From Streptosporangiales bacterium (GTDB taxonomy: Bacteria > Actinomycetota > Actinomycetes > Streptosporangiales > Streptosporangiaceae), in NCBI GenBank assembly GCA_009380095.1, contig WHSL01000044.1, forward strand, positions 1 through 32,325: a stretch of DNA of 32,325 bases. Reading direction: 5' to 3'. The position numbers and the translations under genes are program-made. Below, in pieces: positions 2,476 through 29,513 of this stretch (within the stretch, counting starts at the first letter, position 1; each line of letters opens with the position of its first letter). The notes under the pieces are model-generated. The model ran no database searches, was not told the DNA's origin, and saw nothing but the letters and a program-made list of their open reading frames with translations.

Positions 2476-4215
2476 ATGGCGGAAGTGTCCGAGCAGACAG
2501 GGCTGACCGCGCGCGGCCGGGCGATCGCCGCGCTGACCGCACCCGGCGGGCCGTTCGAGATCGCGCCGGCCGAGGTCCGGGGCATTCCGATGCGGGTGTT
2601 CACCGGCGGGCCGCAGACGCTGCGCGAGGTGGTGGAGTCGAGCCGCGGGTTCGGCGACCGCGACTGCCTGGTGTACGAGGACCAGCGGTGGACCTTCGAG
2701 GAGCACTACCGGATCGTCGCCGGACTCGCCAGGCGGCTGGCGGAGTCGTACGGGCTCAGCAAGGGCAACCGGGTGGCCATCGCGGCGCGCAACTACCCGG
2801 AGTGGTCCATGGCGTTCTGGGCGATCCAGGCGGCGGGGCTGGTGGCCGTACCGCTGAACGCCTGGTGGACCGGGCTGGAGCTGGAGTACGCGCTGCGCGA
2901 CTCGGGCGCGCGGGTGCTGTTCGCGGACGGCGAGCGGGTCGAAACGCTCCGCCCGCACCTCCCGGAGCTCGGGCTCACCACGGTGATCGAGATCCGCGGC
3001 GACCGGGAGCACGTGCTCGGCGTGGAGCACTGGGAGGACGTGCTCGCCGCGCTGCCCGCGGACGCCTCCCTCCCGGAGGTGGCCGTCACACCCGAGGACG
3101 ACGCGACGATCCTCTACACCTCCGGCACGACCGGGCGGCCGAAGGGCGCGGTGGGCAGCCACCGCAACCACTGCACGAACATCATGTGCACGGCGCTGGC
3201 CGGAGTGGCCGGGCAGTTCGTCGCGGCCGGCGGGCCGCCACCGCCGCCGGAACCGGGCGCCCCGCAGCCGGGCGGGCTGAGCACGTTCCCGCTGTTCCAC
3301 ATCGCCGGCATCACCGGGCTGTGCGCGGGCGCCGCGCTCGGCACCAAGCTGGCGCTGATGTACAAGTGGGATCCGGTCAAGGCGGTGGAGCTGATCCGCC
3401 GGGAGCGGCTGAGTTCGGTATCCGGCGTGCCCACGGTGATGCGTTCGCTGCTGGAGGCGGCCGCCTCGGAGCCGGAGGCGGCGGGCAGCCTGGTCTCCAT
3501 GGCCATGGGCGGCGCGCCGATCCCACCGGAGATCATCCGCCGGGTCGACAGGCAGTTCGCCTCCGCGGTCGCGCCCGCGGACGGGTACGGCCTCACCGAG
3601 ACCACCTCGGCCGTGGTGGTGAACGCGGGCGAGGACTACGTCACCCACCCGGACAGCGTGGGCACCTGCGTCCCCGTGGCGGACGTCCGGGTGGCCGACC
3701 CGGCGAGCCTGGAGGACGTCCCCGAGGGGGAGATCGGCGAGCTCTGGTTCCGCGGCCCGCACGTGGTCCGCGGGTACTGGAACAACCCGAAGGCCACCGC
3801 GGAGGCGTTCATCGACGGGTGGTTCCGTACGGGCGACCTCGGCCACGTCACCGACGGCTGGGTCTACGTGGTGGACCGGATCAAGGACGTGGTGATCCGC
3901 GGCGGCGAGAACGTGTACTGCGCCGAGGTGGAGGCCGCGCTGTTCGAGCACCCGGGCGTGGCCGACGCGGCGGTGATCGGGCTACCGCACCGGTCGCTCG
4001 GTGAGGAGGTGGCGGCCGTGGTCACCCCGGCCGAGGGCGCCACGCTCACCGCCGAGGAGCTGCGCGCGCACGTCGGGGAGCGCCTGGCGGCGTTCAAGGT
4101 TCCCACCCATGTCCTCATCTCCGCGGAGCCGCTGCCCCGTACGGCGACCGGCAAGGTCCTCAAGCGGGACCTGCGCAAGGAGACCATGGCCCGGATGGAG
4201 GGCACGCACGCATGA
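2476..4215 (+). CDS. Fatty-acid/carboxylate--CoA ligase (ANL superfamily)
   Basis: A 579-aa adenylate-forming ligase that would activate a carboxylic acid with ATP and CoA to feed the neighbouring dehydrogenases. The P-loop-like A3 motif is LYTSGTTGRPKGA (about 214-226). The later core contains YGLTETTS, then GWFRTGDLGHVTDGWVYVVD with RIKDVVIRGGENVYCAEVE, and the C-terminal catalytic lysine motif PRTATGKVLKRDLRK. An unusual proline-rich loop (six prolines around residue 257) sits between the A3 motif and the acyl-binding core. ATG 2476 follows GGAGAGGGAG. The stop overlaps the next start by 4 bp (ATGA), so translation is probably coupled to the phosphotransferase. Class is certain; acid specificity is unknown. 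Confidence 0.9.
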   Translation: MAEVSEQTGLTARGRAIAALTAPGGPFEIAPAEVRGIPMRVFTGGPQTLREVVESSRGFGDRDCLVYEDQRWTFEEHYRIVAGLARRLAESYGLSKGNRVAIAARNYPEWSMAFWAIQAAGLVAVPLNAWWTGLELEYALRDSGARVLFADGERVETLRPHLPELGLTTVIEIRGDREHVLGVEHWEDVLAALPADASLPEVAVTPEDDATILYTSGTTGRPKGAVGSHRNHCTNIMCTALAGVAGQFVAAGGPPPPPEPGAPQPGGLSTFPLFHIAGITGLCAGAALGTKLALMYKWDPVKAVELIRRERLSSVSGVPTVMRSLLEAAASEPEAAGSLVSMAMGGAPIPPEIIRRVDRQFASAVAPADGYGLTETTSAVVVNAGEDYVTHPDSVGTCVPVADVRVADPASLEDVPEGEIGELWFRGPHVVRGYWNNPKATAEAFIDGWFRTGDLGHVTDGWVYVVDRIKDVVIRGGENVYCAEVEAALFEHPGVADAAVIGLPHRSLGEEVAAVVTPAEGATLTAEELRAHVGERLAAFKVPTHVLISAEPLPRTATGKVLKRDLRKETMARMEGTHA

Positions 4216-5243
4216 CCACCCCGCCGGCCCCGCCGGGGATCGACGTTCCGAAGGTCTCCGCCTGGCTCGCCGCGAACGTGCCGGGTCTGGAGCCACCGGT
4301 GGCGTTCTCGCTGATCTCCGGCGGCCGGTCCAACCTCACGTACGGGTTCACCGACGCCGCGGGCGTACGGCGCGCGCTGCGCCGCCCGCCCACCGGCGGC
4401 GTGCTCAGCACCGCGCACGACATGACCCGCGAGTGGCGGTTCATCTCCGCGCTCGCGGACACCCCGGTACCGGTGCCGCCTCCGCTGGCGTACTGCGCGG
4501 ACACCGAGGTCACCGGGGCCTCGTTCTACGTGATGGGCTTCGTCGGCGGCACCGTGCTCGGCGACGAGGCGGCGGGCCGGGCCTTCCCGGAGGAGTCCCG
4601 GCGCGCCGCGGCCGAGAACACCATCGACACGATGGCCGCGCTGCACCGGGTGGACCCGCACGAGGTGGGGCTGTCCGACATGATCCGGCCCGGCGGGTAC
4701 GTGGAGCGCCAGCTCCGCCGCTGGCACCGCCAGGTGCACGCCTCCGGCGCGGACGACCTCGCGCTCTTCGACGAGGTGCACGACCAGTTGAAGGCGCGGA
4801 TGCCGGAGGGCGGCACCGGCATCGTGCACGGCGACTTCCGGCCCGGCAACCTCTGCTACGCGCCGGACGGCACCGTCACCGGGGTGTTCGACTGGGAGCT
4901 CGCCACGTTCGGCGAGCCGCTGGCCGACCTTGGCTGGCTCATCTCCACCTGGGCGGAGCCCGGCGACAAACTGGCCAGCACCCCCGGCCCGAGCACCGCA
5001 CCGGGCTTCCCCGGCCGCGACGCGCTCGTCGCCAGGTACGCCGACGCGACCGGCACCGACGTCTCCGACCTGCCGTACTACGTGGCGTTCAACCGGTGGC
5101 GCGCGGCCTGCATCGGCGCGGGCGTGGTGGCCAGGTACCGCGCCGGCGTGATGGGCGACGACTCCTACGACGCGGACGCCCGCTCCGGCGACGTGACCCG
5201 GCAGGCCGCCTCCGCCCTCGCCATGATCCGCGAGCTGACCTGA
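4212..5243 (+). CDS. APH-fold phosphotransferase (ACAD10/LvaA-like)
   Basis: A 343-aa kinase-fold protein. The Brenner motif HGDFRPGN is at about residues 206-213 with predicted catalytic Asp208, and the metal-binding DWE begins at Asp227, followed by the family segment GEPLADLGWL. The N-terminal nucleotide-binding lobe has SGGRSNLTY. Proteins of this branch sit beside or are fused to acyl-CoA dehydrogenases: the N-terminal kinase-like part of ACAD10/11, and LvaA in the levulinate pathway, where they phosphorylate 4-hydroxyacyl-CoA. Here it lies between an acyl-CoA ligase and an ACAD11-like dehydrogenase, which favours that role over antibiotic resistance. Its start overlaps the ligase stop. 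No small LvaB-like partner gene is visible nearby. The enzymatic role is inference. Confidence 0.82.
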   Translation: MTTPPAPPGIDVPKVSAWLAANVPGLEPPVAFSLISGGRSNLTYGFTDAAGVRRALRRPPTGGVLSTAHDMTREWRFISALADTPVPVPPPLAYCADTEVTGASFYVMGFVGGTVLGDEAAGRAFPEESRRAAAENTIDTMAALHRVDPHEVGLSDMIRPGGYVERQLRRWHRQVHASGADDLALFDEVHDQLKARMPEGGTGIVHGDFRPGNLCYAPDGTVTGVFDWELATFGEPLADLGWLISTWAEPGDKLASTPGPSTAPGFPGRDALVARYADATGTDVSDLPYYVAFNRWRAACIGAGVVARYRAGVMGDDSYDADARSGDVTRQAASALAMIRELT

Positions 5244-6630: not shown

Positions 6631-7233
6631 ATGACCGACCAGACCGCCACCCAGGGGAGCCCTCGGCGGCAGGAGATCTTCCGCATCGCGGCGGAGATCT
6701 TCTACCGCAAGGGCTATGACGCGACGTCCACCAAGGACATCGCGGACGCCGCGGGCATCCTCAAGGGCAGTCTGTACGCGCACATCGCGTCCAAGGAGGA
6801 CATCCTCTTCGCCGTCGTGGAGGAGGTCCACACGCTGTTCGAGCGCAACGTCGCCGACGTCGAGGCGGCGGCCGGCGAGCCGCTGTCCCGGCTGCGGCGG
6901 TTCGTCCGCGGCCACATGCAGGTGGCGCTGTCCGCGCTCAAGCAGCACCAGATCTACTCGCACGACTGGCGCTCGCTGAACGCCGAGCGGCGCGCCGTGA
7001 TCCAGCGCAAACGCGATGAGTACCAGGCCTACCTGGCCGGCCTGCTGCGCACCGCGCAGCGGACCGGTGAGGTACGGGCCGACATCGACGCGCGGCTCAT
7101 GTCGATCTCGCTGCTCTCCATGCTCAACTCGGTGCACGTCTGGTATCGGGAGGGCGGCGGCGCCAGCGCCGACGAGGTCATCGACGTCCACTGCACGATC
7201 GTCCTCGACGGCGTCCTCACCCACACAAATTGA
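6631..7233 (+). CDS. TetR-family transcriptional regulator
   Basis: A 200-aa repressor. The N-terminal helix-turn-helix spans about residues 13-60 (STKDIADAAGILKGSLYAHI, followed by SKEDIL), and an all-helical ligand-binding domain follows, as in regulators that sense acyl-CoAs. The 28-bp gap from the preceding dehydrogenase indicates it is the last gene of the operon, and the palindrome at 36-55 is a plausible target. The stop codon lies inside the left arm of the palindromic element at 7226-7292. A single A in that arm makes TGA; with the G found in the other three arms the frame would run on for about 20 more residues. Ligand and targets are inferred. Confidence 0.88.
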   Translation: MTDQTATQGSPRRQEIFRIAAEIFYRKGYDATSTKDIADAAGILKGSLYAHIASKEDILFAVVEEVHTLFERNVADVEAAAGEPLSRLRRFVRGHMQVALSALKQHQIYSHDWRSLNAERRAVIQRKRDEYQAYLAGLLRTAQRTGEVRADIDARLMSISLLSMLNSVHVWYREGGGASADEVIDVHCTIVLDGVLTHTN

Positions 7234-7292
7234 GGGAAGGATTTTGTGGGTGAACCCGCAGGTCGCGCCGGCAAAATCCTTCCCCCAATTTG
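7226..7292. repeat. 67-bp palindromic element, copy 1
   Basis: The arms are 21 bp: 7226-7246 (begins CAAATTGAGGGAAGG) and 7272-7292 (begins CAAAATCCTTCCCCC). They are complementary with one mismatch and surround a 25-bp centre containing CCGCAGGTCGCG. A second copy lies at 13306-13372 with the same arm length and centre length, its centre in the opposite orientation. The element sits between convergent genes and could act as a bidirectional terminator. The AT-rich outer arms and conserved centre also fit a REP- or MITE-like dispersed repeat. No clear target-site duplication is visible. Confidence 0.85.
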
Positions 7293-7303
7293 TTGATCTT
7301 GGA

Positions 7304-8518
7304 TCACGCGGGGTTGTGGACCGGTAGGTGTTTGGGGCCGGAGATGAAGTTGGACGAGAGCCAGGTGACCGGGCCGCCGGGCGCCAGGTGGGGGAGCCGG
7401 GTGAGCAGCTCGCGGAGCAGTTCCTCGATCTCCACCCGCGCGACGTGCGAGCCGAGGCAGTAGTGCGGCCCGCCACCGCCGAACGCGACGTGGTGGTTCG
7501 GCGAGCGCGCCGGGTCGAACCGGTCCGGGTCGGCGAAGACCTCGGGGTCACGGTTGGCCGCGCCGTAGTACATGACCACCTTGTCGCCGGCCCGGATGGT
7601 GCGGCCGCGCAGCTCGGTGTCGGCGGTGGCGGTGCGGCGCATGTAGATCACCGGGCTCACCCAGCGCAGCATCTCCTCGATCGTGGGCTTGAGCGTCCCG
7701 TCCAGGTCGGCGCGGATCGCCGCCGTGGCCTCCGGGTGCCGGAACAGCGCGTGCATGCCGCCGGACACGAGGTTCCGCGTGGTGTCCCCGCCGGCGTCGA
7801 TCAGCAGCAGGAAGAACAGCCCGAAGTCGATCTCGTCCACCGGCCGGTGCCCGAGGTGCCCGTTGATCACCTTGCCGCACAGGTCGTCCGTGGGCCGGGC
7901 GCGCTTCTCCTCCCACACGGTGTGCGCGTAGCCGAGCATCTCCCGTACGGCGGCGGTGCCCGGCGGCTCCTCGCCCTCGGCCGGCGAACCGTCCGGCACG
8001 GAGTGGATCGCCTCGGTGAGCTTGTACAGCGCCACGCCGTCGGCGTGCGGGATGCCGAGCAGCTCGGCGATCACGTACGAGGGCATCAGTCCGGCCACGT
8101 CCTCGACGAGGTCGAAGCGCTCCCGCCCCGCCACGCCGTCGATGATCTCGGCGGCGAGCTCGCGGATGCGCGGGCGCAGCGCCTCCGCGGCGCGCGGGAT
8201 GAAGTCGCGGTGCACGATTTTCCGCTGCACGGTGTGCCCCGGCGGGTCCTGCATCAGCATCATCGCGTGGTCGGGGACGGTGACCTCGCCCGGCGCGTCC
8301 GCGATCATGATGGTGGGCGCCGAGGAGAAGAGCACGGGGTCGCGGCCGACGGCACGTACGTCGTCGTGCCGGGTGAGCGCCCAGAAGCCCGGTCCGTCCG
8401 GCTCCGGGTGGAAGTGCACCGGGTCGTGCTCGCGCAGCCAGCGGAACTGGTCCCAGGGCTGGCCGGCCGCGAACGACGCCGCCGAGAGAAGGTCGATCGC
8501 GGGGGAGTCGATCGCCAT
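7304..8518 (-). CDS. Cytochrome P450 (CYP125/CYP142/CYP124-like group)
   Basis: A 404-aa soluble bacterial P450 with all standard landmarks: I-helix DAGGDTTRN, K-helix EEMLR (EXXR), and heme loop FGGGGPHYCLG with the thiolate ligand at Cys354. The N-terminal QPWDQFRWLREHDPVHFHP and the end SNFISGPKHLPV resemble P450s that hydroxylate sterol side chains, isoprenoids and fatty acids. ATG 8518 is preceded on its strand by GGGAGA about 9 bp upstream. It needs a ferredoxin and reductase, neither of which is encoded here. It is convergent with the TetR gene and divergent from an acyl-CoA ligase, so hydroxylated or oxidised products could feed acyl-CoA metabolism. The substrate is not determinable. 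Confidence 0.92.
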   Translation of the reverse strand: MAIDSPAIDLLSAASFAAGQPWDQFRWLREHDPVHFHPEPDGPGFWALTRHDDVRAVGRDPVLFSSAPTIMIADAPGEVTVPDHAMMLMQDPPGHTVQRKIVHRDFIPRAAEALRPRIRELAAEIIDGVAGRERFDLVEDVAGLMPSYVIAELLGIPHADGVALYKLTEAIHSVPDGSPAEGEEPPGTAAVREMLGYAHTVWEEKRARPTDDLCGKVINGHLGHRPVDEIDFGLFFLLLIDAGGDTTRNLVSGGMHALFRHPEATAAIRADLDGTLKPTIEEMLRWVSPVIYMRRTATADTELRGRTIRAGDKVVMYYGAANRDPEVFADPDRFDPARSPNHHVAFGGGGPHYCLGSHVARVEIEELLRELLTRLPHLAPGGPVTWLSSNFISGPKHLPVHNPA

Positions 8519-8722
8519 GGCCGAGATCTCCCATCGCTCAACGTCGATTCTCAGTCGTGTCTACACCGCCGGACCGGCGAACGGCAAGGGGGGACTGTCG
8601 CGCTTATTCGTCGCCGATGAAAAATTGATCGACGCGCCCCCGAACCCTTTCGCGATGCCGTCGAAAGGTGGCTCGGGACGTGCGTCGTCCCTGGCCATGC
8701 GCGTTGCAAGCGACCAGGGGCA
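8519..8722. other. Divergent intergenic region upstream of the P450 and ligase
   Basis: Together with the promoter, operator and leader described next, this is the 354-bp gap between the P450 start and the ligase start. GC content is visibly lower than in the genes. A CCCTGG (8689-8694) / CCAGGG (8714-8719) inverted repeat encloses a near-palindromic GCGCGTTGCAAGCG core, which may be a control site for the P450. I see no convincing promoter hexamers for the P450 and no protein-coding signal. Confidence 0.5.
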
Positions 8723-8751
8723 TTGACTCTTCAAAAGCTCCACATTAACCT
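8723..8751 (+). promoter_or_regulatory. Sigma-70-like promoter of the second acyl-CoA ligase
   Basis: TTGACT (8723-8728) and TAACCT (8746-8751) are separated by 17 bp, a near-ideal arrangement. Transcription would start near 8758, giving a 5' leader of about 115 nt before the ATG at 8873. Confidence 0.65.
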
Positions 8752-8772
8752 CACTAGAGCACGGTTCTAGTG
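8752..8772. promoter_or_regulatory. Palindromic operator over the ligase transcription start
   Basis: A perfect inverted repeat CACTAGA (8752-8758) / TCTAGTG (8766-8772) with a 7-bp spacer starts immediately after the -10 box. The position is that of a repressor site. It does not resemble the palindrome at 36-55, so a different regulator is expected. The half-site TAGA..TCTA recalls TetR-type operators of lipid genes, but spacing differs by one base from the KstR consensus I know. Confidence 0.6.
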
Positions 8773-8872
8773 TGCGGGAGCTCCGTCGTCAATTGGCACG
8801 GCAATGGCGCCGGCCGCAATTGTGGCCGTGCTTTCCGGCGCGGCCGTGCGTCATGGTTGCGAAGGGGAGCAG

Positions 8873-10417
8873 ATGTACCCAGGACGTCACGCTCGTACCG
8901 ACCCCGACCGGCCGGCGGTGATCATGGCCGGGTCCGGGCAGACCGTCACCTACCGCGAACTGAACGAGAGATCCATCCGGCTGGCCCGCGTGCTGCGCGC
9001 GAGCGGGCTGCGGCCGGGCGACCACATGGCGATCATCGCCGAGAACCACCCGTGGTACTTCGAGGTGTTCTGGGCCGCGATGCGCTCCGGCCTGCGCCTG
9101 ACCGCGGTCAACAGCCATCTGAACCCCGACGAGGCCGCCTACATCGTGACCGACTGCGAGGCCTCCGTACTGATCGTCTCGCACCACCTGGGCGAGCTCG
9201 CCGACGCGCTGCGCACCCGGGTGCCGCCGCAGGTCCGGCGGCTCATGTTCGGCGGCACGAGCCCCGGCTACGAGTCGTACGAGGAGCTCGTCGACGCCGC
9301 CTCGCCCGAGCCGCTGGACTCCGAGCCGCGCGGGGCGATCATGCTGTACTCCTCCGGCACCACCGGCCGGCCCAAGGGCATCAAGCTGCCGCTGCCGGAC
9401 GTGCCGGTGGACCACCCGGACAACCGGCTGGCCATCGCGATCTCGGGCACGTACGGCTTCGGCCCGGACACCGTCTACCTGTCGCCCGCGCCGATCTACC
9501 ACGCGGCGCCGCTCGGCTACACGGCCGGCACGCAGACCCTCGGCGGCACCGTGGTCATGATGGAGCGCTTCGACGCCGAGGACGCGCTGCGCTACATCGA
9601 GAAGTACAAGGTCACGCACAGCCAGTGGGTGCCGACCATGTTCATCCGGATGCTGCGGCTGCCCGAGGAGACGCGGAACAAGTACGACCTGTCGAGCCAC
9701 CGGGTCGCCATCCACGCCGCGGCGCCGTGCCCGCCCGAGGTGAAGCGGGCGATGATCGACTGGTGGGGCCCGATCATCCGGGAGTACTACGGCTCCAGCG
9801 AGGGCGCCGGGACCACGAACATCACCTCCGAGGAGTGGCTGCGCAAGCCCGGCTCGGTGGGCCGCCCCGCCTATGGCGAGGTGCACATCTGCGCCGACGA
9901 CGGCAGCGAGCTGCCGACGGGGGAGATCGGCAAGATCTACTTCGATCAGGGCGAGGTCGCGTTCAGCTACCATAACGACCCGGAGAAGACCGCGGAGACG
10001 CGACACCCCACGCGGCCCACCTGGGCGACGGTCGGAGACGTGGGCTATGTGGACGCCGACGGGTACGTGTTCCTCGCGGACCGGCGGGTGGACATGATCC
10101 TTTCCGGCGGGGTCAACATCTACCCCCGGGAGATCGAGGACTGCCTGATCGGGCACCCCTCCGTCGCCGACGTGGCGGTCTTCGGCGTCCCCAACCCGGA
10201 CATGGGGGAGGAGGTCAAGGCCGTGGTCCAGCCCGCGGAGGGGGTGACCGCCGGCGACACGCTCGCGGACGAGCTCATCGCGTACGCGCGCGAGCGCATC
10301 TCCCGGTACAAGGTGCCGCGCAGCGTCGACTTCTCCGACCAGCTGCCCCGTACGCCCACCGGCAAGCTGCAGAAACGGCTGCTCCGGCAGAGGTACTGGG
10401 ACGCGGCGAAGGCCTGA
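8873..10417 (+). CDS. Acyl-CoA synthetase (FadD13-like ANL ligase)
   Basis: A 514-aa adenylate-forming ligase. I choose ATG 8873 (MYPGRHARTDPDRPAVIMAG) because it has AAGGGGAG 5 bp upstream and begins where family homology begins; the frame opens at 8804, but that stretch lies in the leader. Motifs in order: YSSGTTGRPKG (159-169), YYGSSEGAGTTN, then VGDVGYVDADGYVFLADR with MILSGGVNIYPREIED, and PRTPTGKLQKR with the C-terminal catalytic Lys. It would convert an acid to its CoA ester. It is transcribed alone from its own promoter and is followed by a strong hairpin terminator. Acid specificity is unknown. Confidence 0.9.
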   Translation: MYPGRHARTDPDRPAVIMAGSGQTVTYRELNERSIRLARVLRASGLRPGDHMAIIAENHPWYFEVFWAAMRSGLRLTAVNSHLNPDEAAYIVTDCEASVLIVSHHLGELADALRTRVPPQVRRLMFGGTSPGYESYEELVDAASPEPLDSEPRGAIMLYSSGTTGRPKGIKLPLPDVPVDHPDNRLAIAISGTYGFGPDTVYLSPAPIYHAAPLGYTAGTQTLGGTVVMMERFDAEDALRYIEKYKVTHSQWVPTMFIRMLRLPEETRNKYDLSSHRVAIHAAAPCPPEVKRAMIDWWGPIIREYYGSSEGAGTTNITSEEWLRKPGSVGRPAYGEVHICADDGSELPTGEIGKIYFDQGEVAFSYHNDPEKTAETRHPTRPTWATVGDVGYVDADGYVFLADRRVDMILSGGVNIYPREIEDCLIGHPSVADVAVFGVPNPDMGEEVKAVVQPAEGVTAGDTLADELIAYARERISRYKVPRSVDFSDQLPRTPTGKLQKRLLRQRYWDAAKA

Positions 10418-10429
10418 GGCTCCCGGAGG

Positions 10430-10462
10430 CTCGTCCCCGTGCCGAACCGGCATGGGGACGAG
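10430..10462 (+). terminator. Strong hairpin terminator after the acyl-CoA ligase
   Basis: Arms CTCGTCCCCGTGCCG (10430-10444) and CGGCATGGGGACGAG (10448-10462) pair over 15 bp with one G-U wobble and a 3-nt AAC loop. The structure begins 12 bp after the ligase stop and is followed by GTTT, without a long T-tract, as is common in actinomycetes. Confidence 0.85.
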
Positions 10463-10545
10463 GTTTCGGCGGCCGATTTAGGATGATCTGGGCCTTTCCG
10501 GAACAGACCTCCGGCGGGCTCTTCCCCGGGTAGTCGGCCCGTCAC

Positions 10546-10551
10546 TAAAGT
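10546..10551 (+). promoter_or_regulatory. -10 box for a probable leaderless transcript
   Basis: TAAAGT (10546-10551) fits TAnnnT and ends 7 bp before the GTG at 10559, so transcription would start at or next to the start codon. No Shine-Dalgarno sequence precedes that GTG, which agrees with leaderless translation. No -35 match is visible. Confidence 0.5.
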
Positions 10552-10558
10552 TCCGGCC

Positions 10559-11938
10559 GTGCCGAGTAGCGCAAATCACAGAAACGCCGGACTCGACCTG
10601 GTTTCGGCGCCCACCGGCGCGATCACCGGGGACGCCGTACCGCTCTACGGCGAGGTCTTCTCCGAAGATCAACATGGCCTGTACGAGCGCCTCCGGCGGG
10701 AGTGGGGCCCGGTCGCCCCCGTGCTGCTCGAACCCGGCCTGCCCGCCTGGCTGGTGCTCGGCTACTACGAGGTGCTGCGCATCTGCCGGACGCCGCGGCC
10801 GTTCTCCCGCGACACCCGCCGCTGGCGGGAGCTCCAGGAGGGGGTGCGGCACGGCTCCGTACCCGCCGAGCTGGTGCACCGGCCCGGCCTCGCCTTCGCC
10901 GAGGGGGAGGAGCACGAGCGGCTGCGGCGGGCCGTGAGCGACGCGCTGGAGCGGCTGGACCCGGCCGCCGTCGCGCGGCACGTACGGGAGATCGCCGGCG
11001 CGCTGATCGACAGGTTCGCCCCGGACGGCCACGCCGACCTGGTACGGCGGTACGCGCACCGGCTGCCGCCGTACGTGCTCACCAAGATCGTCGGAGTGCC
11101 GGACGGGGAGGTCGCCGCGTTCGCCGCGATCCTCACCCGCGAGGTGCGCCCCGGCCGGCCGGACGACGGCGAGCTGGAGCGGCGGCTCCTCGACCTCGTC
11201 GAGCTGAGGCGCGGCGAGCCCGGCGAGGACCTCACCTCGTGGCTGATCGAGCACCCCTCCGCGCCGTCCGACAAGGAGCTCGTCCACCTGCTCCGGGTCA
11301 CCCTGCGGCGCGGCGACCGGCCCACCGCCGACCTGCTCGCCAGCGCGCTGCGCTGGCTCGTCAGCGACCGCGAGTTCGGCAGCGCGGTGGCCGCGCACCG
11401 GCTCGGCGTGGAGGACGCCATCGACCAGGTGCTCTGGGTGGACCCGCCGGTACAGAACGGGGCGCCGCACGTGCCCACGCAGGACGCGCGGATCGGCCGC
11501 GCCGACATCGGCGCCGGGGACCTGATGGTGATGAGCTTCGCCGCGGCCAACGCCGACCCGGTGCTCAGCGGCGGCCTCGCCGAGCTCGGCCACGCCGGGC
11601 TCTCCGGGCGGCGCGCCCACCTCGCCTGGGGCGCCGGGCCGCACCGCTGCCCGGCGCAGCGGCTGGCCCGCATGATCGCCGGGGTGGGCGTGGAGGTGCT
11701 GCTGGACCGGCTGACCGGGCTGCGCCTCGAGGGGCCCGCCGCCCGCCTCGACCGCCGCCCGTCCCCGCTCGCCGCCGGCCTGGTGTCCCTTCCGGTCCTG
11801 TTCGAACCCGCCCCGGTCCGGAACGGCACCGAGCCCGTCTTCGAACCCGCCTTCTCCGACCCCTTCACCGACCCCGAGCAGGGCTCGTCCCGAGGCCGGC
11901 ACGCCGCCCGCCGCGGGCGATGGTTCCGCCGAAGTTGA
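10559..11938 (+). CDS. CYP157-like P450 lacking the EXXR motif (copy A)
   Basis: A 459-aa P450-fold protein. The heme loop is LAWGAGPHRCPAQ with Cys364 as the presumed axial ligand. At the K-helix it reads IDQVLWVDPPVQ, so the EXXR pair is replaced by Q..W. The I-helix oxygen-activation region is RRGDRPTADLL, with Arg where Ala/Gly is usual. Loss of EXXR with a LW sequence is the hallmark of the Streptomyces CYP157 family, normally found in conservons. Here no roadblock, DUF742, GTPase or sensor genes flank it. A tail of about 45 residues beyond the usual P450 end is rich in Pro and acidic residues (FEPAFSDPFTDPEQ), then basic. The GTG start has no ribosome site and is likely leaderless. Catalytic activity is uncertain. 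Confidence 0.85.
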   Translation: MPSSANHRNAGLDLVSAPTGAITGDAVPLYGEVFSEDQHGLYERLRREWGPVAPVLLEPGLPAWLVLGYYEVLRICRTPRPFSRDTRRWRELQEGVRHGSVPAELVHRPGLAFAEGEEHERLRRAVSDALERLDPAAVARHVREIAGALIDRFAPDGHADLVRRYAHRLPPYVLTKIVGVPDGEVAAFAAILTREVRPGRPDDGELERRLLDLVELRRGEPGEDLTSWLIEHPSAPSDKELVHLLRVTLRRGDRPTADLLASALRWLVSDREFGSAVAAHRLGVEDAIDQVLWVDPPVQNGAPHVPTQDARIGRADIGAGDLMVMSFAAANADPVLSGGLAELGHAGLSGRRAHLAWGAGPHRCPAQRLARMIAGVGVEVLLDRLTGLRLEGPAARLDRRPSPLAAGLVSLPVLFEPAPVRNGTEPVFEPAFSDPFTDPEQGSSRGRHAARRGRWFRRS

Positions 11939-11942
11939 CGCC

Positions 11943-13304
11943 GTGACGGACCACGGAGAGCGGGACGCCGCGCACACGCCGGTCACCACGGAGGCGGTGC
12001 CGCTCTTCGGCGAGGACTTCGGCGGCGACCCGCACGCCCTGTACGAGCGGCTGCGCCGCGAGTGGGGCCCGGTGGCGCCCGTACTGCTCGTGCCCGGACT
12101 CCCGGCCTGGCTGATCCTCGGGTACTACGAGGTCGTGGGGGTCTGCCGCGCGTCCCGGCTGTTCTCCCGGGACACCCGGCTCTGGGCGGACCTGCGCGAC
12201 GGGCACGCGCCGCCCGGCACGGCCGTACCGGCCGGGCTGCTGTACCGCCCCGGCCTCGCGTTCGCCGAGGGGGATGAGCACACGCGGCTACGGCGCTGCC
12301 TGACGGACGCGCTCGAGCGGCTGGACCCGGCGAGCACCATGCGGCACACCCAGGAGATCGCCGAGGAGCTGATCGACGCGTTCTCCCCGGAGGGCCGGGG
12401 CGACCTCGTCGGGCAGTACGCGCGGCTGTTGCCGCCGTACGTGCTGGCCCGCCTGCTGGGCGTGCCGGAGAACGGGATCGGCCGGTTCGTCGCCGCGGTG
12501 ACGCACGAGGAGGCCGCGCCCCACCCCGGCTCGCCCGGCTCGGGAGACGCGCTCGGCCGGGAGCTGGCCGCCCTCGTCCAGGCCAGGCGCGAGGAGCCCA
12601 CGGAGGATCTCACCTCCTGGCTGGTCGGACATCCCGCCGCCCTCCCGGACGAGGCGGTCACCTCGGTGCTGCACACCGTCCTGCGCCGCGGCGACGGGCC
12701 CACCGCCGACCTGCTCTCCGGCGCGCTGCGCCGGCTGGTGCACGGCCGGGAGCCCGGGAGCGCGGAGGCGGCCCGCGGGCTGGACGTGGAGGACGCCATC
12801 GACGAGGTGCTCTGGACGGACCCGCCGGTGCAGAACGGCGCGGCGCGGGTGCCCACCCACGACGCGCTGCTGGGCCGGGCCGAGATCGTCGCGGGCGACC
12901 TGATGCTGATGGGCATCGCGGCGGCGAACGCCGACCCCGTACTCGGCCGGGGGACCACCGGCCCGGGCGTCTCCGGCCGGTCCGGGCGCCGCGCCCATCT
13001 CGCGTGGGGTGCGGGCCCGTACCGCTGCCCGGCCCAGCGGCTGGCCCGGCAGATCGCCTCCGTGGGGGCCGGCGTCCTGCTCTCCCGGCTGACCGGGCTG
13101 CGGCTGGAGGTCCCGCCGGAACGGCTGGAGCGCCGTGCGTCGCCGCTGGCGCCCGGGCTCGACGCGCTGCCGGTGCTGTTCGAGCCCGCTCCGGCGAACG
13201 CGGCGAGACGCGCGGCTCCGGTCGTCGAGCCCGCGTTCGCCGAGCCCGACCCGGAGCCGGAGTTCGTCAACCCCTTCCGCCAGAGCTGGTGGCACCACTC
13301 CTGA
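11943..13304 (+). CDS. CYP157-like P450 lacking the EXXR motif (copy B)
   Basis: A 453-aa tandem paralogue of the preceding gene, starting with GTG only 4 bp after its stop, so the two are co-transcribed. The proteins align throughout, including YERLRREWGPVAPVLL near the N-terminus. The heme loop is LAWGAGPYRCPAQ with Cys362, and Tyr replaces the usual His/Arg two residues before Cys. The K-helix is IDEVLWTDPPVQ: Glu is kept but Arg is replaced by Trp. The I-helix region is RRGDGPTADLL. The C-terminal tail again carries EPAF and a PDPEPE run, ending WWHHS. The pair may work as a heterodimer or as non-oxygenase heme proteins; that is speculation. Membership in the CYP157-like group is a motif-based call. 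Confidence 0.85.
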   Translation: MTDHGERDAAHTPVTTEAVPLFGEDFGGDPHALYERLRREWGPVAPVLLVPGLPAWLILGYYEVVGVCRASRLFSRDTRLWADLRDGHAPPGTAVPAGLLYRPGLAFAEGDEHTRLRRCLTDALERLDPASTMRHTQEIAEELIDAFSPEGRGDLVGQYARLLPPYVLARLLGVPENGIGRFVAAVTHEEAAPHPGSPGSGDALGRELAALVQARREEPTEDLTSWLVGHPAALPDEAVTSVLHTVLRRGDGPTADLLSGALRRLVHGREPGSAEAARGLDVEDAIDEVLWTDPPVQNGAARVPTHDALLGRAEIVAGDLMLMGIAAANADPVLGRGTTGPGVSGRSGRRAHLAWGAGPYRCPAQRLARQIASVGAGVLLSRLTGLRLEVPPERLERRASPLAPGLDALPVLFEPAPANAARRAAPVVEPAFAEPDPEPEFVNPFRQSWWHHS

Positions 13305-13305
13305 A

Positions 13306-13372
13306 TAAGTTGGGGGAAGGATTTTGCGGCCGCGACCTGCGGTTTCTCTAACAAAATCCTTCCCCCAATTTG
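13306..13372. repeat. 67-bp palindromic element, copy 2 (inverted)
   Basis: Arms 13306-13326 (TAAGTTGGGGGAAGGATTTTG less its last base is the core) and 13352-13372 (begins CAAAATCCTTCCCCC) pair with two mismatches around a 25-bp centre. The centre contains CGCGACCTGCGG, the reverse complement of the copy 1 centre, so the element is in opposite orientation. It starts 1 bp after the stop of the second CYP157-like gene and faces the 3' end of a minus-strand remnant, again a convergent junction. Its arms match copy 1 in all but a few positions. Confidence 0.85.
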
Positions 13373-13373
13373 C

Positions 13374-13882
13374 GGGATGGGTGGGTGTCCTCGTCGATGG
13401 CGTCGACCTTTTGGGCGGGGCCGTCGTACATGGCGTTGAACAACATGGTGATCGTCGCGCGGGACCAGGTGCGGTACGTGACCTGGCTGCCGGCGATCGT
13501 CACGTCGCCCCCGGAGCCGGACGCCACCTCGAACGCCGCGTCGGACTTGTTGAACCAGATCGGCCACTCCTCCGGCATGCCCCAGGCCGCCGGCTCGGAG
13601 GAGTCGAACTTCTGCGTGATCAGCGAGCCCGGTACGAAGTAGTCCTCGCTGGGCGCCGGCAGCGGATTCTTCACCGGCAGCGAGAGCAGCTCCGTGGCGG
13701 TCTTGGAGGCGTCGCCGAGCGCGACGAGCGTGCCGCCGTCCTCGACGAAGTCCTTGAGCCGCTGCCAGCCCTCGCGGCGGCGGGGGAGTCGTCGCCGCTC
13801 AGCCTGGGCAGTCCGGCGAACGTGCCGGGCTCGTACGGGCTGAGCGCGGTGGTGTCGATGACCATGGTCCCGGACGTTACGG
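13374..13882 (-). pseudogene. Frameshifted C-terminal remnant of an M14-type peptidase-like protein
   Basis: Two minus-strand frames join to give about 165 residues of recognisable protein: VIDTTALSPYEPGTFAGLPR in one frame, then WQRLKDFVEDGGTLVALGDA and later PGSLITQKFDS, AWGMPEEWPIWFNKSDAAFE and SRATITMLFNAMYDGP in another. The switch lies in the C/G run at about 13775-13790. The pattern resembles the C-terminal amidotransferase-like domain of large actinobacterial M14 zinc carboxypeptidases. The catalytic domain (several hundred residues) is absent: upstream sequence leads straight into the control region of the next gene. The frame runs into the palindromic element without its own stop. 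The family assignment is from memory and moderate; decay is clear. Confidence 0.6.
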
Positions 13883-14024
13883 TACGACCCGGCCGTGGGC
13901 CGGAGGTGGTCATGTTCGGTGGCGATCGCTAGGAAATTGTTGAAGGTCGTACCAAAATCGCCGTGGGCCTCCATACTTGTCGGGGCCAGGCCGGATATGA
14001 GCATGAAGGCGCGGTGATGCCGCT

Positions 14025-27691: not shown

Positions 27692-29513
<1,822 letters not shown>

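Follow-up and report, generated by a model that had tools for sequence, protein, structure and literature searches.

The locus raises the question of why a single stretch of DNA should carry the same long palindrome twice, and whether the two copies are unrelated terminators or members of one dispersed family. The stretch (hereafter the window, 32,325 nucleotides, contig WHSL01000044.1 of a Streptosporangiales bacterium) is contig C355 in the assembly of an actinobacterial genome that is 97% complete and comprises 6.09 Mb on 413 contigs. An initial annotation had placed 67-bp copies at 7226-7292 and 13306-13372, with 21-bp arms and a 25-bp centre, and the analysis confirmed these coordinates and lengths. 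Dispersal of the repeat through the genome is well supported. The element is probably a lineage-specific, formerly mobile, non-autonomous palindromic repeat, similar to repetitive extragenic palindromes (REPs) and bacterial interspersed mosaic elements (BIMEs) or to miniature inverted-repeat transposable elements (MITEs), whose copies now form stem-loops at gene 3' ends.

A palindrome dispersed through one genome

Copy 1 (core 7226-7292) lies on the plus strand, as judged by its centre GAACCCGCAGGTCG, and its inner arms (7226-7246 and 7272-7292) are complementary at 20 of 21 positions around a 25-nt centre. Copy 2 (13306-13372) lies on the minus strand by the same measure, with inner arms at 13306-13326 and 13352-13372 and again a 25-nt centre. 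When copy 2 is reverse-complemented, 58 of its 67 positions agree with copy 1 (19 of 25 in the centre), so the window copies do have the opposite orientations first proposed for them. They are two of the three top-ranked inverted repeats of the window (arms at most 60 nt apart).

The genome was searched for further copies. A strict two-arm pattern found 11 palindromes, against none for a reversed control pattern, and their alignment gave a consensus palindrome of 87 bp, in which the 67-bp core is preceded by CCAAGATCAA and followed by TTGATCTTGG (10-bp outer and 21-bp inner arms on either side of a 25-bp centre). The arm sequence is CAAATTGGGGGAAGG. Copy 1 keeps the right outer arm TTGATCTTGG (7293-7302, plus strand) and is missing the left one, and copy 2 has neither. 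BLASTN with the 87-nt consensus located 41 copies of nearly full length, spread over 37 contigs of this genome, with E-values down to 1.9e-31. The 11 palindromes against none, together with these E-values, exclude chance. The two counts also rule out that only two copies exist genome-wide, the outcome that the initial annotation had named as telling against a family. The dispersed family that it predicted is there, and its 67-bp unit stands as a core; the complete palindrome, however, has 87 bp, and about 41 near-full copies take the place of two.

A single-arm search added one full copy split by another small element, as well as six truncated or lone-half sites (on C143, C243, C332, C79, C93 and C369); the genome holds about 20 truncated forms of the repeat. 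Identity of the copies to the consensus core ranges from 78 to 96%; conservation is 93% in the arms, 79% in the centre and 60-69% in the outer arms, and the sequences flanking different copies are unrelated. Two arrangements were seen besides. On C403 (52111-52250; L049 1512-1651), two copies in opposite orientation lie a few bases apart, in the gap where a diacylglycerol kinase gene meets its convergent neighbour. On C364 (19178-19364; L057 1679-1865), the split copy is interrupted by an element of about 111 bp with 20-bp inverted ends, CAGGGCGATTACAAGGTCGC and GCGACCTTGCAATCGCCCTG, and an apparent 8-bp target duplication, GGATTTTG; this insert looks like a second, different MITE nested in the palindrome.

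Short forms of the repeat are also present. A 24-bp form, CCAAGATCAA and TTGATCTTGG joined by CAAA or CAAG (CCAAGATCAANNNNTTGATCTTGG), occurs in eight perfect copies immediately behind stop codons, with no extra copies at one mismatch and none in 298 family genomes. A 22-bp form, CCAAGATCAACAAATTGGGG, occurs three times at gene ends, where one 28-bp palindrome and the lone halves are likewise found. The junctions are those expected if sequence between short direct repeats of the arms (TTG and TTGGGG) had been deleted, a common decay route of long palindromes. The short forms are probably deletion scars, not ancestors: deletion from TTG to TTG would give the 24-bp form and from TTGGGG to TTGGGG the 22-bp form, and the scars would remain at sites of the same type.

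Judged by these searches, the family appears to be lineage-specific, confined to one actinobacterial genome. The repeat was not found in 20 relatives, in 250 other genomes of the same family (BLASTN, E 0.001), or among the plasmids or phages searched. It was not found in GTDB r220 or IMG/VR with the exact strict two-arm pattern (in IMG/VR also with one exact arm), and diverged relatives would escape such exact patterns. The genus is represented by one genome, the source genome. The closest named relatives of its MurD, from one scan, are in Actinoallomurus and Actinomadura, at about 66% identity. In the source genome an element lies between murD and ftsW, 12 bp behind the murD stop; in Actinomadura and Actinoallomurus the gap between these genes ranges from overlapping to about 100 bp and holds no such palindrome. 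Behind aspC, 29 family relatives are without the element. The relatives at both loci are distant, so the comparisons show absence elsewhere and no clean insertion event. The aspC 3' ends of most relatives carry their own long G+C-rich stem-loop, unrelated in sequence and usually without a U-tract, and a helix of at least 12 stands behind aspC in 79% of relatives versus 15% in shuffles. A literature search found no earlier description of the repeat family. It is apparently undescribed and, within the scope of these searches, a new family, of an otherwise ordinary kind of bacterial repeat.

Placement at gene 3' ends

Neighbouring genes were called with a codon-usage gene caller trained on the window, and placement was counted for the 43 copies or fragments with both neighbours known. 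Twenty-three lie in convergent gaps, 20 in tandem gaps and none in divergent gaps. Divergent gaps make up 45% by bases and 25% by number of the element-free gaps at the same loci, so chance would hardly leave them without a single copy (P about 6e-12 by bases, 3e-6 by gene pairs). Nearly all copies adjoin a stop codon, which in tandem pairs is that of the upstream gene: in 19 of 20 tandem gaps the element begins 0-24 bp past the upstream stop, and the distance between the two averages 11% of the free space (z = -6 versus uniform). The initial annotation had the element settling at convergent gene ends. That holds for 23 of the 43 sites, with none divergent, but tandem pairs also carry copies, behind their upstream gene, and the preference is therefore for gene 3' ends and not for convergent ends.

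Outside the window, seven genes unrelated to one another extend into the element, which encodes their C-terminal peptide. Their products are of the LysR, MmgE/PrpD, HAD hydrolase, molybdopterin-binding oxidase, TetR and diacylglycerol kinase types, with one of unknown type. The tail reads DQQ(I/V)GGR(N/I)L (for example QDQQIGGRNL) or the shorter PQIGGRNL before the stop, a TAG that falls at the border of arm and centre. Pfam domains end ahead of the tail in all six tail genes scanned.

Within the window, each copy has one neighbouring open reading frame (ORF) that ends inside the element. At copy 1 this is a TetR-family regulator gene (6631-7233, plus strand), whose stop TGA (7231-7233) lies in the left arm. 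On the other side is a convergent cytochrome P450 gene (7304-8518, minus strand), with its stop codon adjoining the right outer arm. At copy 2, a plus-strand gene without a Pfam match (11943-13304) has its stop codon immediately 5' of the palindrome. The convergent minus-strand ORF (13348-14004), also without a Pfam match and given a start at 13674 by the coding-score model, crosses the right arm and stops in the centre, with the tail RKLGEGFC. Elsewhere in the window, a thiamine pyrophosphate (TPP) riboswitch (RF00059, 27683-27796, plus strand) was found immediately 5' of a gene at 27792.

Origin and role

The reading preferred here is that copies would have spread by transposition, or by copying from a master element, with an enzyme no longer in the assembly, and that insertions would have survived where they were harmless, at gene 3' ends. 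Transcription, coming from one side in tandem and from both sides in convergent gaps, would then turn the element into a 20-30-bp stem-loop serving as an mRNA 3'-end structure, one that either stops transcription or holds back 3' exonucleases. Being palindromic, the element would work equally in either orientation. Predicted RNA folds are strong: the strands of copy 1 fold at -51.8 and -51.7 kcal/mol, with z-scores of -5.1 and -5.9 respectively, and copy 2 has a z-score of -4.6. For an element placed in this way, bidirectional action as a 3'-end stem-loop seems the most likely role.

Several results count against this reading. On the side of mobility, the case is drawn from copies within one genome. 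No match to the Y1 tyrosine transposase domain of REP-associated tyrosine transposases (RAYTs; PF01797) was found in the 97%-complete genome, and mobilisation by a RAYT or REPtron was rejected on that ground; 5 of 14 control genomes, E. coli included, gave matches. A transposase with matching terminal repeats, as the initial annotation had suggested, was looked for in the genome and not found. All 21-bp arm matches (at most 2 mismatches) fall in palindromes or lone halves, so no insertion sequence (IS) with matching ends was found in this 413-contig assembly, which may lack collapsed ISs. Visual inspection of the element edges, where palindromic sequence and missing outer arms blur the borders, showed no constant target-site duplication.

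On the side of the RNA, base-pair covariation over 40 aligned copies scored 0.092, versus 0.084 +/- 0.007 in shuffles, and 75 of 500 shuffles scored as high. An uncompensated T-to-A change in the left arm, common to 14 of the 40 copies, breaks one pair. With no covariation above shuffles, the shared sequence reflects copying and not selected base pairing; covariation thus gives no sign of a selected RNA stem, a candidate set aside on that ground. The conservation pattern is what recent copying would leave, and it neither proves nor excludes a role for the RNA stem. No Rfam family matched at the element, which does not place it in a structured RNA family. No U-tract follows the stem in the window copies, so the element is not a canonical intrinsic terminator. 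Finally, a strong terminator would be awkward at the copy between murD and ftsW. A terminator scan gave one match in the element, at 13324, using the centre only, and the match total was within shuffle expectation. U-tailed hairpins at other gene ends are rare in this genome and its relatives alike, which makes that comparison uninformative.

The mobilising enzyme may no longer be present in the genome, or contig breaks may hide a collapsed copy of its gene. The genome has one IS110-type domain match, without a link to the element. An IS inserted into the palindrome was considered at the ends of contigs C403 and C404, where a common sequence of at least 167 bp directly follows the element and the element itself faces opposite ways. 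This repeated sequence was also seen at C254 (L069 about 3299) and C233 (L068 about 4076-4247). It borders the palindrome in three of the four places, beginning behind the right arm, without clear sign of being an IS. A peptide from it does not match Pfam, two contigs end within it, and it may represent the 3' end of a multicopy gene. C233 also carries an inverted duplication of about 375 bp (L068 1-376 and 2502-2873), with 88% identity, within the one contig.

The repeat could instead be purely selfish, a MITE or REP with no function, found at gene ends because insertions into promoters, ribosome-binding sites and coding regions were purged. The lack of stem covariation and the shared uncompensated substitution fit this well, as do the truncated scars, the element-encoded last codons of genes and the copy inside the murD-ftsW cluster. 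However, tandem copies hug the upstream stop where tolerated insertions would be spread over the free space, and relatives also bear a long stem-loop behind aspC, in the same place; a selfish element is a possibility to be kept in mind, though an unlikely one. A further proposal is that the element is mobile and domesticated at once, inserted at stop codons by a targeting mechanism and not placed there by survival alone, moved by an enzyme other than a Y1 transposase or RAYT and bringing a ready-made bidirectional stem-loop and stop; this is quite improbable.

The position behind stop codons and the long stem-loops behind aspC in relatives would also be expected of vertically inherited bidirectional terminators that arose in situ and are alike by convergence only. 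Against this, the same 67-87-bp sequence, with its asymmetric centre and shared derived substitutions, stands in unrelated flanks, and nothing similar occurs in the 250 family genomes. Near-identical 21-bp arms together with a conserved asymmetric centre go beyond convergence, so origin in situ is effectively refuted; the argument made at the outset, that conservation of centre and arms speaks against unrelated terminators, is borne out by a centre conserved family-wide. BIMEs bind gyrase and IHF, and the element might likewise be bound specifically by a DNA-binding or nucleoid protein and be selected at gene ends, where supercoils accumulate from convergent transcription. The inner arms and centre are kept as sequence without covariation, and half of the sites are convergent pairs, as such a site would have it. 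But no cognate protein was identified, tandem pairs account for nearly half of the copies, and recent copying explains the conservation equally, which leaves a binding site very improbable.

Comparison with known systems

Like an intrinsic terminator, the element places a strong stem-loop immediately behind a stop codon, here a bidirectional one; unlike a terminator, it is repeated and dispersed, its centre is long (25 nt), and it lacks a U-tract. The integron attC site, also a palindrome behind a stop codon, was considered and set aside: there are no arrays, and the outer arms do not appear to fit the attC core motif. Rickettsia palindromic elements (RPE, PMC2229807) are similar in that a palindromic repeat is fused in frame to unrelated protein genes. 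Here, however, the fusion is a C-terminal tail of only about 10 residues, the element gives the stop codon, and most copies lie outside genes.

Bacterial MITEs such as Correia/NEMIS, RUP and ERIC (PMC2229807) are likewise short and non-autonomous, with inverted terminal arms, and the element has terminal inverted repeats of 21-31 bp, 41 near-full copies and no transposase gene of its own. Tens of dispersed copies along with internally deleted and truncated variants are a further likeness (PMC2229807). It is unlike MITEs (PMC2229807) in lying almost exclusively at gene 3' ends, and neither an IS with matching ends nor a target-site duplication was found.

REPs are found mainly between convergent and tandem ORFs, at most 20 bp from 3' ends; in tandem gaps they lie near the upstream stop, and GTAG REPs often supply the TAG stop codon (PMC3733652). 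The present element shares the dispersed palindromes of REPs and BIMEs, their placement at convergent and tandem 3' ends, and copies that give the flanking ORF its TAG stop. It differs in size, at 67-87 bp (21-31-bp arms, 25-bp centre) versus 20-40 bp for REPs, and in that REPs have GTAG/CGTC at one end, whereas here GTAG stands at the border of arm and centre, in 10 of 40 copies, and is not terminal. Longer, with a non-terminal GTAG in only 10 of 40 copies and no RAYT found, the element is not a GTAG-REP by membership. It is nonetheless REP-like in behaviour: extragenic, in tens of copies, and near the 3' ends of convergent or tandem ORFs. Here, several unrelated genes have received their stop codons, C-terminal tails or 3' stem-loops from dispersed repeats. 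A full REP-like location pattern in a GC-rich actinobacterium in which no RAYT was found lets one test whether a RAYT is required for REP-type placement at gene ends, or whether selection or function alone can produce it.

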